From contig JAUHXT010000015.1 of assembly GCA_030426925.1 (NCBI GenBank), positions 1 to 34,902 of the forward strand: DNA of 34,902 nt, read 5' to 3'. The notes under the pieces are model-generated. The model ran no database searches. It had not been told where the DNA came from and was given only the letters and a program-made list of their open reading frames with translations. Shown here piece by piece: positions 18,759 through 23,242 of the stretch. This stretch comes from Alphaproteobacteria bacterium. Lineage in GTDB: Bacteria > Pseudomonadota > Alphaproteobacteria > Micavibrionales > Micavibrionaceae. The translations under genes were made by a program, and so were the position numbers. Position 1 is the stretch's first letter. The number at the start of each line of letters is the position of its first letter.

Positions 18759-19021
18759 ATATATCCCCTTTAAAATACTCTAGGACAGCCCGTCACTAAC
18801 GAAACGATACGTTCGCTAATGAGACTGGGTATTACCATCGAAACAAAAAATCCTTATCACTGTGACAGGCTCGGCGCAAGCCCCTTACGCATATTTTCTT
18901 TGGACAAACCTGTGGGCTTTTTTTCAGTATTTTGAATTTACTGGCTTTTTTATTTCATTTTTTGTTTAATGCGTTCTCACATCTGACGTCTACTTTTTCG
19001 AAACGCTAAGGACTCTTATCC
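18759..19021. other. Intergenic region between divergent bactofilin and DUF389 genes
   Basis: This 263-nt interval must hold the promoters for both divergent genes. A loose palindrome CGAAACG/CGTTCG lies near 18800. AAGCCC (about 18891) can pair distantly with GGGCTT (about 18927) before a T-run. Neither is convincing. AAGGA at about 19009 is the ribosome site for the plus-strand gene. Confidence 0.4.
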
Positions 19022-20062
19022 ATGTCATTGAGAATCATAGAAATTTCGGCTCCGGACACATCGCTTGATAAAATCCAGACACTGGCAGAAAAATACGAAG
19101 CCATAGACGTCGGGCAAACCAACCGCAAAAGCTGGTTTCAAAAATCCGGGACCGAACGCATAACCACCCGCATCCTCGTCGATGTTCAAAACCAGCAGGA
19201 CATGATCGACGCGCTTCAACGCGCCGTATCGCGTGAAGACGACTGGCGTATCACCCTCATCCCTGTGGAAGCGACCATCCCAAAACCGAAGGAAAAGGAA
19301 CGTGAAAACGGTGACGCCGCAAACGGCAAAAAAACCAAAAAAATCCTCGGCGGCTCTATCACCCGTGAAGAGCTGCAGGAGGATATGGAAGCCGGAAGCC
19401 GCCTCAACTTTGATTTCGTTGTGATGGTCGTACTCGCCGCACTGGTGGCCGGAATCGGCCTGATCGAAAGCAACGTTGCCGTGATTATCGGTGCCATGGT
19501 CATCGCCCCGCTGCTGGGCCCGAACCTTGCTCTTGCGTTTGGAACAACGCTTGGCGACCGCGATATGATTTTTGCCGCAATAAAAACCAACGCCGCCGGT
19601 CTCGGCATCACCTTGCTCATCAGTTTCATAGCTGGCCTGCTCATCCCCGTCGAAACAATAACGGCCAGTTCCGAGCTAATGGACCGCACGGGCGTCAATT
19701 TTGCCGGTATCGTCCTCGCTCTGGCCTCCGGCGCGGCGGCCGTCCTGTCCATCACGGCCGGAACATCCAGCGCGCTGGTCGGGGTTATGGTCGCCGTAGC
19801 ATTAATGCCGCCTGCCGTTACACTGGGGCTGGCTTTGGGTGAATTCCGCTATGACCTGGCCTACGGCGCGGCCCTTCTCCTCGCCGCAAACATAGTCAGC
19901 GTTAATCTGGCGGCCCAGGCCGTGTTTGTCATCAAGGGTATACGCCCACGCACATGGTACGAGGAAAAGAAGTCAAAAGAGGCCATTTTGCTCCACAATG
20001 TTATATGGATGTCTGCGCTCGCCCTGCTCTGCGCTTTGATATGGCTCAAAACCGCGAATTAA
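19022..20062 (+). CDS. DUF389 (TIGR00341-type) multi-pass membrane protein
   Basis: The 346-residue protein has a soluble N-terminal domain (about 1-95) and a charged Lys/Glu linker (about 82-110). The family-defining membrane block follows: RLNFDFVVMVVLAALVAGIG, then ESNVAVIIGAMVIAPLLGPN and ALAFGTTLGD. About seven to eight hydrophobic helices reach to residue 340. DUF389 proteins are conserved inner-membrane proteins of unknown transport or sensing function. The start at 19022 has AAGGA 9 nt upstream. It is divergent from the bactofilin gene and is followed by a hairpin plus T-run at 20067. No partner gene indicates its substrate. Confidence 0.9.
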   Translation: MSLRIIEISAPDTSLDKIQTLAEKYEAIDVGQTNRKSWFQKSGTERITTRILVDVQNQQDMIDALQRAVSREDDWRITLIPVEATIPKPKEKERENGDAANGKKTKKILGGSITREELQEDMEAGSRLNFDFVVMVVLAALVAGIGLIESNVAVIIGAMVIAPLLGPNLALAFGTTLGDRDMIFAAIKTNAAGLGITLLISFIAGLLIPVETITASSELMDRTGVNFAGIVLALASGAAAVLSITAGTSSALVGVMVAVALMPPAVTLGLALGEFRYDLAYGAALLLAANIVSVNLAAQAVFVIKGIRPRTWYEEKKSKEAILLHNVIWMSALALLCALIWLKTAN

Positions 20063-20066
20063 AGGG

Positions 20067-20096
20067 CGATTTTTCCCATAAATATCGATTTTTTTT
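20067..20096 (+). terminator. Terminator after the DUF389 gene
   Basis: CGATTTTT (20067-20074) pairs with AAATATCG (20080-20087) with one mismatch, then eight T residues follow at 20089-20096. The stem is AT-rich, but position (5 nt after the stop) and tail fit a rho-independent terminator. Confidence 0.5.
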
Positions 20097-20102
20097 CCTC
20101 TC

Positions 20103-20126
20103 CCTTAAAGCAACATTTCTTTAAGG
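20103..20126. promoter_or_regulatory. Perfect inverted repeat upstream of the sigma-54 promoter
   Basis: CCTTAAAG (20103-20110) and CTTTAAGG (20119-20126) form a perfect 8-bp palindrome with an 8-nt spacer, CAACATTT. The spacer is repeated at 20141-20148. Its centre is about 60 nt upstream of the expected start site. It could bind an enhancer-binding or repressor protein; it could also be a second terminator for the DUF389 gene. Confidence 0.55.
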
Positions 20127-20150
20127 TACTGTTTTTATTGCAACATTTTC

Positions 20151-20166
20151 TGGCACAGCGGTTGCA
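20151..20166 (+). promoter_or_regulatory. Sigma-54 (RpoN) -24/-12 promoter
   Basis: The 16-nt site matches the consensus TGGCACR-N4-TTGCW at every fixed position, with the invariant GG (20152-20153) and GC (20164-20165) separated by exactly 10 nt. Transcription would start near 20176, about 57 nt before the ATG of the small membrane protein. Sigma-54 promoters need an activator ATPase. Confidence 0.75.
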
Positions 20167-20232
20167 GATTATAGAAACAGGGTATGGAAATTTTTATTTT
20201 CATAAGTTCACACCTTATACTGGAGGGGCAAC

Positions 20233-20505
20233 ATGACCTTTGACCTGAATACACTACCCGAAGATCCGGGCGCCTTGAGCGAAGCCGAAATGCTCGCCTT
20301 CGCGCAACAACTCAATGATATTGAACCAAGCAATCATGCGCTGGATATGATCGTCCAGCAACCGGACGCTGCTGGCCTGACTGCCGCGATACTGATTTTG
20401 CTTTACCTTGCCGGTATCGCGATTATTCAGGGCCGCATGCTCCTGCCGGCAATGGCGCAAACGAAACACGCGCTGTCGTCGCTGCTCCACCGCTACGCGT
20501 CGTGA
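20233..20505 (+). CDS. Small single-pass membrane protein under sigma-54 control
   Basis: The 90-residue protein has an acidic N-terminal half (about 1-46), one hydrophobic segment (about 48-66, TAAILILLYLAGIAIIQ) and a short basic C-terminal tail. That charge pattern would place the N-terminus outside and the C-terminus inside. I do not recognise a family. Reality is supported by a strong GGAGGGG ribosome site 6-7 nt before the ATG and by the consensus sigma-54 promoter upstream. A small AT hairpin (20183-20190 with 20197-20204) lies in the leader. Its last 13 nt overlap the 3' end of uvrC on the other strand. Sigma-54 control suggests a role tied to nitrogen, motility or envelope response, but which one cannot be told. 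Confidence 0.75.
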   Translation: MTFDLNTLPEDPGALSEAEMLAFAQQLNDIEPSNHALDMIVQQPDAAGLTAAILILLYLAGIAIIQGRMLLPAMAQTKHALSSLLHRYAS

Positions 20506-22346
20506 AAATAATCGTATATTTTCTGCGCTGTGGATTTTGATATACCGTCGACATTCTGCAGGTCTTCGACACTCGCCCCCGACACCGCCTGCCCCGAACC
20601 GAAATGCAGCAACAACGCGCGCTTGCGCTTCGCGCCGATACCCGGCACACCATCCAGCGGTGATTTGCTGATATCTCCTTTACGGCGTGTCCTGTGCGCG
20701 CCAATGGCAAACCGGTGCGCTTCATCGCGCAGACGCTGCAGGTAATGCAAAACCGGATCGTTTACGGGCAACTGGAACTGCTTCTTCCCCGTCATAAAAA
20801 ACTGCTCCCGCCCCGCATTCCTGTCCGGCCCCTTGGCAATCGCCACCAGCGTCACATCATCGAGGATCCCCAGCTCTTCCAGAACCTCATACACGGCCGA
20901 TAGCTGCCCCTTCCCCCCGTCAATAAGCAACAGGTCTGGCCACTCCTCTCCCTCCTTGTCGACTTCCTCTTTCAAAAGCCGGGTAAAGCGCCGCGACAAT
21001 ACCTCGCGCATCATCCCGTAATCATCGGCTGCTTCTGCTGTCTTGATATTGAACTTGCGGTAAGCGCTTTTGCGAAATCCTTCCGGCCCCGCGACAATCA
21101 TCCCGCCCACCATATTGGTGCCGGATATGTGGGAGTTATCGTACACTTCAATTCGCTGCGGCGGCTCGTCCATGTCGAACAGCTCCGCAACACCCTCCAG
21201 GAATTTCGCTTCCGATGCCTGCTCTAACAAGTGACGCTCCATCGCGTGCTGCGCGTTGTTCTGCACAAAATCCATCAGCCGCTTGCGCACGCCACGCGAC
21301 GGTTTTGAAATCGCCACCTTGCGTTTCAGCTTTTGTGACAAGGCTTCTTCCAGCAAGTCTTTATCGTCGGGAATGTTGGACACAATCACCTCCGGCGGCA
21401 CCGGCTTGCTCTCGTAAAATTGTGCAAGAAACGCGCCCAGGATCGCACCGTCTTCTTCTTCATTCTGGTGACGCGGGAAATATGCGCGGTTGCCGAAATT
21501 CTGCCCTCCGCGGAAAAAGAAAACCTGCACGCATGACTTCCCCTGCCTGCGGTATAACCCGACCACGTCCGCATCCTTGATACCGGATACGTTGATATCC
21601 TGCCGCGCCTGTATCGCGCTCAACGCCCGGATACGGTCGCGGTATTTTGCGGCTTCCTCGTAATCCTGCTCCGCCGATGCCGCCTGCATCTGCTTGGCGT
21701 ATTTTTCCTGTATCTCGCGCGACTTGCCGGACAGGAACGCGCGCGCCTCGTCCACCTGCTGCGCATATTCCTCCTTGCTCACCTTGTCGACGCACGGCGC
21801 GGTGCACCGCTTGATATGGTATTGCAGGCACGGTCGCGCCCGCTGGGCGAAATAACTGTCCGTGCAATTGCGCAACAGGAACGCCCGCTGCATGACGTTC
21901 AGCGTCTGGTTCACCGCCCCCGCCGACGCAAACGGGCCAAAATATTCTCCCTTGGTTTTCTGCGCCCCCCGGTGCTTCATCACGCGCGGATAGTCATGGT
22001 CGAACGGGATCAGGATGTACGGAAACGACTTGTCGTCGCGCAAAAGGATATTATACCGCGGCTTCAGCTTCTTGATCATGTTGGATTCAAGCAGCAGCGC
22101 CTCGACCTCAGTGCCGGTATTCACCACCTCCATCGTGTCGGTTTCCGCCACCATGCGCTTCAACCGCTCCGGATGCCGGTTGATGTTCGTGTACGACATC
22201 ACCCGTTTTTTCAGGCTTTTGGCCTTACCGACATACAAAACGTCCCCGCCAGCATTCAACATCCGGTACACACCGGGGCTTTCGGGCAGTTTATTGGCAA
22301 ATTCGCGGATAATCTCCGCCCCGCGCTGCAGGGAAATTTCACTCAT
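20493..22346 (-). CDS. uvrC: Excinuclease ABC subunit C
   Basis: UvrC makes both incisions in nucleotide-excision repair. From the preferred start at 22346 the protein is 617 residues. The GIY-YIG nuclease domain is at the N-terminus (SPGVYRML ... VLYVGKAKSLKKRV). Next come a cysteine-containing linker and the UVR motif (EQDYEEAAKYRDRIRAL, about 200-216) that contacts UvrB. The RNase-H-like nuclease has EVYDNSHISGT and LLLIDGGKGQLSA. Tandem C-terminal helix-hairpin-helix motifs include PGIGAKRKRALLLHFGS. An in-frame ATG at 22418 would add 24 residues without domain support; neither start has a good ribosome site. The gene stands alone on the minus strand between the small sigma-54 gene and repeat copy 3. 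Confidence 0.95.
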   Translation of the reverse strand: MSEISLQRGAEIIREFANKLPESPGVYRMLNAGGDVLYVGKAKSLKKRVMSYTNINRHPERLKRMVAETDTMEVVNTGTEVEALLLESNMIKKLKPRYNILLRDDKSFPYILIPFDHDYPRVMKHRGAQKTKGEYFGPFASAGAVNQTLNVMQRAFLLRNCTDSYFAQRARPCLQYHIKRCTAPCVDKVSKEEYAQQVDEARAFLSGKSREIQEKYAKQMQAASAEQDYEEAAKYRDRIRALSAIQARQDINVSGIKDADVVGLYRRQGKSCVQVFFFRGGQNFGNRAYFPRHQNEEEDGAILGAFLAQFYESKPVPPEVIVSNIPDDKDLLEEALSQKLKRKVAISKPSRGVRKRLMDFVQNNAQHAMERHLLEQASEAKFLEGVAELFDMDEPPQRIEVYDNSHISGTNMVGGMIVAGPEGFRKSAYRKFNIKTAEAADDYGMMREVLSRRFTRLLKEEVDKEGEEWPDLLLIDGGKGQLSAVYEVLEELGILDDVTLVAIAKGPDRNAGREQFFMTGKKQFQLPVNDPVLHYLQRLRDEAHRFAIGAHRTRRKGDISKSPLDGVPGIGAKRKRALLLHFGSGQAVSGASVEDLQNVDGISKSTAQKIYDYFHDA

Positions 22347-22438
22347 GGGGATGTAATCTAAGCCAGTGCATGAATTTTTCAAAGAGCCTTGAAATTCTGC
22401 CCCCAACCGACTACTCATAACTGTCTTTTTTAAAAAGA

Positions 22439-22687: not shown

Positions 22688-23242
22688 ATGCACGAAAGTA
22701 ACAAACATGTTCGGATTATGCCTGCGAGCCGGTTGCTGCAGGCTTTCGTCGGTACGGGCAAGTTCAGGGAAGAAAACATTGAAAAGGCGCAGGCGATCAT
22801 CGACCGTGTGCAGGGCAATCTCGATATTTCGGATTTAGCACAGCAACACATGCAGGAAATGTCCGAAGTCATCAGCGATATCAAGGCGGGCAAGGACGCG
22901 AACGATATTATCAAAAAGGCCACACATTCGCTGGTTGATTTCAAATCCAATGCCGGGATGTTTGATGAGGGGAAATACATCAACCTGCCGATCTTGTTGT
23001 TCCAGTGGATGGAAAGCATCGAAACGATCGATCAGGATTCAACGGATATTATTGAATGGTACTTCCTGATTATGAGCAAGATCCTGATTGAAAAACAGAT
23101 CAGCGACGATCAGGTAGACCCGATCACGAAGGAAATGGCTGAAGCCTGCAAGCGTTACTACGCCAAGCACCCCGAAATCGAACAGGCCCGTATCATCGAC
23201 AATGTTGATACGCTGTTCGGGGACGAAGAGCAAACCACCTGA
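22688..23242 (+). CDS. Hypothetical cytoplasmic helical protein
   Basis: The 184-residue protein has no signal peptide or membrane segment and looks almost entirely alpha-helical, with charged amphipathic stretches (IEKAQAIIDRVQGNLDISDL, QMSEVISDIKAG-like) and an acidic C-terminus. I do not recognise a family. AAGGA about 6 nt before the ATG and a start 20 nt after the tRNA CCA end support expression, possibly by read-through from the tRNA promoter. The antiporter gene follows after 15 nt on the same strand, so the two probably form an operon. The open frame extends upstream into the tRNA but has no support there. Confidence 0.85.
   Translation: MHESNKHVRIMPASRLLQAFVGTGKFREENIEKAQAIIDRVQGNLDISDLAQQHMQEMSEVISDIKAGKDANDIIKKATHSLVDFKSNAGMFDEGKYINLPILLFQWMESIETIDQDSTDIIEWYFLIMSKILIEKQISDDQVDPITKEMAEACKRYYAKHPEIEQARIIDNVDTLFGDEEQTT

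Follow-up and report, generated by a model that had tools for sequence, protein, structure and literature searches.

The sequence comparisons presented here point to a credible sigma-54 promoter directly upstream of the gene for an orphan 90-aa single-pass membrane protein, in a window of 34,902 nucleotides (the whole stretch of DNA analysed) from a genome of the Micavibrionaceae, and we consider it plausible that this promoter works. Our preferred reading, which we hold tentatively and at slightly less than even chances, is that the promoter acts in concert with an FlbD-like activator and that the 90-aa protein serves the flagellum or the swimming-cell envelope as a lineage-specific accessory. 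The mechanism is of a known kind. Direct support exists for the motifs, for the presence of RpoN and of an FlbD-like activator, for the coding signal and for the pattern seen across the family.

A candidate sigma-54 promoter and its place among family sites

The -24/-12 element TGGCACAGCGGTTGCA lies at 20151-20166 on the forward strand and, as the earlier note on this DNA had reported, agrees exactly with TGGCACR-N4-TTGCW: its GG is at 20152-20153 and its GC at 20164-20165, the gap between them is exactly 10 nt (GG-N10-GC), and the TGGCAC and TTGCW contexts are both present around it. It is the single exact match to TGGCACNNNNNTTGCW within the window. The element is intergenic, on the same strand as the 90-aa gene and 66 nt before its start, and the usual spacing to the -12 predicts a transcription start at about 20176-20177.

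Judged by counts in its own genome the element does not rise above chance, as the exact motif is found at 2 forward and 2 reversed-control sites, TGGCACR-N4-TTGCW at 1 site with 1 reversed control, and the motif with one mismatch allowed at 21 sites against 19 controls. It does look real, modestly, when judged by position: 6 of the 21 near-consensus sites (the one at 20151 included) lie outside ORFs, with a same-strand ORF of 80 aa or more starting no further than 250 bp downstream, compared with 0 of 19 controls (Fisher P = 0.02, or 0.047 without the 20151 site). A further site before a flgF-like gene looks real by eye and is uncounted in this test, since an over-long ORF covers it. The same impression is gained across the family, where exact TGGCACR-N4-TTGCW occurs at 92 sites in 33 of 37 genomes against 26 reversed controls. 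Of these 92 sites, 49 fall outside ORFs of at least 80 aa. We detected rpoN in 36 of these 37 genomes; G061, in which it was not found, still has 2 exact sites, and four rpoN-bearing genomes have none, so that the motif is neither fully specific nor complete. The earlier note had proposed looking elsewhere in the genome for the promoter together with its upstream dyad; no other place in the genome closely matches the dyad (see below).

An orphan membrane protein

The 90-aa ORF occupies 20233-20505 of the forward strand behind a GGAGGGG ribosome binding site, read from the sequence at 20222-20228, and no other co-directional gene lies between it and uvrC, which is convergent (20493-22418, reverse strand) and overlaps the ORF by 13 bp. 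This agrees with the earlier description, in which the sole downstream gene has a strong ribosome site and encodes a membrane protein of 90 aa with a single pass. The protein has an acidic N-terminal tail, a hydrophobic segment at about residues 47-65 and a basic C-terminal tail; the tail before the segment carries nine acidic and no basic residues, with the basic residues following the segment, a distribution that by the positive-inside rule suggests that the acidic N-terminus is probably outside. By codon usage the ORF looks coding, as its score was reached by 5 of 380 windows read in a wrong frame and equals or exceeds that of 20 among 76 coding windows, which were themselves drawn from the training genes. 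Single-sequence structure prediction was poor (pLDDT 59.6).

As far as sequence searches can place it, the protein is an orphan, found so far in one bacterial genome only. No homologue was found in 57 relatives, the genome contigs, viral contigs, plasmids or phages, and in 142 genomes of the order the sole credible match was the protein itself. The best match among solved structures had an E-value of 0.49 and that in PHROGs 0.18, and in Pfam and NCBIfam the protein fell below every cut-off. Four weak order-level matches (E 0.02-0.08) were rejected as 37 to 56-residue pieces that lie in other open frames or, at locus L195, run across stops; the one at L193 lies inside an 873-aa open frame. Membership of the TrbC/VirB2 pilin family (PF04956) was likewise tried and rejected, the weak match at residues 21-75 (E 0.047) scoring 14.3 bits against a cut-off of 27.9. 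For a protein that homology cannot place, the promoter thus provides a likely expression context.

RpoN, activators and the sigma-54 regulon

The genome itself encodes RpoN (G000 C42) with all three Sigma54 domains. It also yields eight Sigma54_activat matches, of which three have both an AAA and a Fis-type HTH domain and so count as full activators, and two of these three keep the GAFTGA motif as read from their sequences. One of the two is FlbD-like, matching NF050807 with an E-value of 2.6e-215 and 715.5 bits (just below the curated cut-off of 750) over model positions 1-449 of 454, and its gene lies downstream of fliF and fliG, clustered with them. The other is a receiver-AAA-HTH protein (L092:4942-6336) that we leave unclassified; by eye, kinase-like and receiver-domain proteins are densely clustered around it (L092:403-10098). 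The third full activator scores above the NtrX cut-off (604.2 versus 600) and is without GAFTGA.

Recognisable targets of sigma-54 sites in the genome are flgI, flgK, a flgF-like rod gene (named from its position before a flgG-like gene) and an SLT lytic transglycosylase. Homologues of this transglycosylase (L025:576-1493, SLT domain) are found behind 19 of the 92 family sites, and homologues of a second protein of the genome (L101:1616-2344) behind 18 (for example at L189, L183 and L120); in the genome itself, both of these genes carry near-consensus sites (L025 and L027). The L101 protein had no Pfam or NCBIfam match at the limits used, and many members of its family carry motifs like HDRMAGSVPVW and FGFGDLIDMINPLHHIPVV. 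All 92 family sites were examined, and word patterns placed 41 of them in six classes with 51 unclassified. Two further targets of the genome, L014 and L021 (judged by eye to be lipoprotein-like and a repeat protein, respectively), are not known to be linked to the flagellum, and their products had no match among the family sigma-54 targets. The recognisable part of the sigma-54 regulon is flagellar and cell-wall. Since the FlbD-like protein is in addition one of only two GAFTGA activators, we favour FlbD-type flagellar control over the nitrogen or envelope-stress response that had been suggested earlier. The family-wide set of flagellar, lytic transglycosylase and unnamed-family genes is more useful than the single gene, and is directly testable in any cultivated relative.

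Under flagellar control, sigma-54 RNA polymerase would bind the -24/-12 element at 20151-20166 and opening would require an AAA+ activator, most likely the FlbD-like protein from the fliF-fliG region. The transcript from about 20176 would carry a single gene, that of the 90-aa protein with its one predicted membrane-spanning helix, which would be co-expressed with the cell-wall transglycosylase and with flagellar genes of the middle and late classes, consistent with the accessory role proposed above. In Caulobacter, ftr sites are described as the elements by which FlbD activates the middle and late genes of the flagellum (PMC3930126). Similar to the FlbD/FliX regulon of Caulobacter crescentus, we observe rpoN, an FlbD-like activator and -24/-12 sites before hook and ring genes; unlike that regulon, no ftr-like site was identified here and the 90-aa orphan gene lies outside the flagellar clusters. 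No FlbD binding motif was established from the classified family promoters by k-mers, gapped words or dyads, and it is solely the company kept by the promoter class that points to FlbD control of the 90-aa gene. The best gapped words reached z 7.1, compared with at most 5.4 in 10 shuffles, and some shared upstream signal may exist in these promoters; the five over-represented gapped words are all absent from the 20151 promoter. Gapped words such as CAG-N9-CTC are over-represented in the 41 classified promoters and are commonest before transglycosylase genes (11 of 18); they could reflect either the binding site of an activator or the conservation of coding sequence nearby.

Small membrane proteins encoded behind sigma-54 sites

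Sigma-54 control of so small a membrane protein had been called unusual, a view that gains no support here. In E. coli, the gene of the small membrane protein PspG is transcribed on its own. The likeness of the 90-aa gene to pspG, in that each would be a gene for a small membrane protein under sigma-54, is a parallel by description. The pspG gene is described as a member of the PspF regulon that lies outside pspABCDE (PMC2763126), and PspF as a sigma-54 enhancer binding protein (PMC6003685). Within the family, small membrane ORFs (30-100 aa, ATG start, ribosome site, membrane segment) stand behind 3 of the 92 sites, that is the 90-aa gene and two others, compared with 57 of 20,000 random positions, a lenient control in that these positions include coding DNA. 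A fourth case is found at another site of the same genome (L011), and small membrane genes thus appear repeatedly, if infrequently, behind the sigma-54 sites of the family.

At this last locus (L011:1501-1700; G000 C6:35526) a near-consensus sigma-54 site is followed by a good ribosome site and the gene for a 40-aa protein that putatively crosses the membrane once; this protein was unmatched among those called behind family sites. In two genera (L121 and L182), similar-looking 39-aa ORFs (MVNYMYGA...MMPF and MGNYIYAV...MLPF) directly follow exact sigma-54 sites; both failed the fixed small-membrane-ORF criteria given above. Kinship of the 40-aa protein with two 39-aa proteins of relatives was considered and rejected, the alignment being unconvincing.

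Alternative explanations

The same promoter might instead be driven by the second GAFTGA activator, with the 90-aa protein answering an environmental signal rather than flagellar assembly. This we think rather unlikely: the activator's receiver, AAA and Fis-type HTH domains and its GAFTGA motif, its setting among receiver-domain and kinase-like proteins, and the location of the 90-aa gene away from any flagellar cluster all speak for such control, but nothing ties the targets of this activator to the 90-aa locus, and the palindrome described below, a possible site for it, is not closely matched anywhere else in the genome. We are similarly doubtful that the sigma-54 match is a chance occurrence, with the 90-aa gene expressed as part of the DUF389 transcript or from some other promoter that escaped recognition. 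The equality of exact matches and reversed controls in the genome is what chance would give, the family control taken at face value makes about 28% of the exact sites chance (26 versus 92), and G061 has its two sites though rpoN was not found there. However, the 20151 site is intergenic, on the correct strand and a short distance upstream of a gene whose ribosome site is strong, and near-consensus sites occupy promoter-like positions where controls do not. Moreover, a scan of 19900-20700 restricted to sigma-70-like sites found none, where 0.9 would be expected by chance.

A separate proposal concerns the palindrome CCTTAAAG-N8-CTTTAAGG at 20103-20126, which the earlier note had paired with the promoter as a control element. 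The palindrome is present as that note had it, with spacer caacattt and arms that are perfect over 8+8 nt and reach 11 nt with one mismatch, and so is the recurrence of CAACATTT from its spacer at 20141, there part of an imperfect 14-nt direct repeat on the forward strand (TTAAAGCAACATTT at 20105-20118 and TTATTGCAACATTT at 20135-20148, spacing 30, 86% identical). The palindrome could be the operator of a regulator, bound by a repressor or, at an unusually short distance (about -61), by an activator, and this would be compatible with either sigma-54 reading. When the 170-bp gap was shuffled 4000 times, an equally good palindrome arose 128 times (3.2%), and 10 of 205 window tiles carry one. The half-site CCTTAA is also among the commonest of 90 same-composition words before the 91 other sigma-54 sites, with 13 occurrences within 100 bp of the sites, where it ties for first place (the words average 3.8), 9 within 60 bp, where it ranks first, and 21 within 200 bp, where it ranks second. 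Against this, two other such words also reach 13, the lead at 60 bp is one (the next word has 8), the positions are scattered, and the word was first noticed in a k-mer list, so that the later count is not an independent test. The genome contains only 2 palindromic places within 2 mismatches (the one at 20103 and a weaker one), compared with 5 per strand in the control; the GCAACATTT repeat is found at 0 of the 91 other sites, and the direct repeat was not significant against shuffles (767 of 4000). There is thus no clear sign of a shared control site, and the pairing with the promoter gains no support. Because the palindrome begins 40 nt past the DUF389 stop codon and its predicted hairpin (-7.5 kcal/mol) is followed by T-rich sequence, it may be a weak terminator of the DUF389 gene, a reading no less likely than that of an operator, and we judge the operator proposal to be distinctly improbable. 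A leader hairpin at 20183-20204 was unexceptional against shuffles, and Rfam gave one sub-threshold match (16.4 bits versus 50).

Neighbourhood and synteny

Upstream of the 90-aa gene lies the gene of a DUF389 membrane protein (19022-20062, forward strand; PF04087, TIGR00341), a family present in 8 of 38 genomes, while uvrC is present in 37 of the 38, with the genome under study included in both counts. Among the 30 uvrC loci examined (those returned of 37, some of which end at contig ends), a sigma-54-like site (TGGC[AG][CT]-N5-TTGC[AT]) downstream of uvrC was seen in this genome only. In relative G010, DUF389 likewise adjoins uvrC, but the slot holds a different, unrelated 166-aa ORF, and no sigma-54 site was seen there. 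In 14 of 29 relatives' loci, uvrC has downstream of it a same-strand ORF that opens with MFHR, as the bactofilin of this genome does. In the window, DUF389 and the 90-aa ORF (18759-20492; compare L035 and L065) are inserted between bactofilin (PF04519) and uvrC, two genes that adjoin each other in many relatives; in G010 the insertion consists of DUF389 and the 166-aa ORF. The slot between bactofilin and uvrC may collect lineage-specific genes.

The 13-bp overlap with the 3' end of uvrC, together with the finding of no terminator-like site on the ORF strand from its stop codon to 20700, led us to consider a dual use of the sigma-54 transcript, which would both encode an orphan protein adapting the envelope of the swimming cell and run antisense into uvrC. 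This we regard as highly improbable; if true, it would tie DNA-repair expression to the flagellar programme. Further along the window, a 184-aa ORF at 22688-23242 lies beside a CPA2-type antiporter gene and has no meaningful match in Pfam or NCBIfam.
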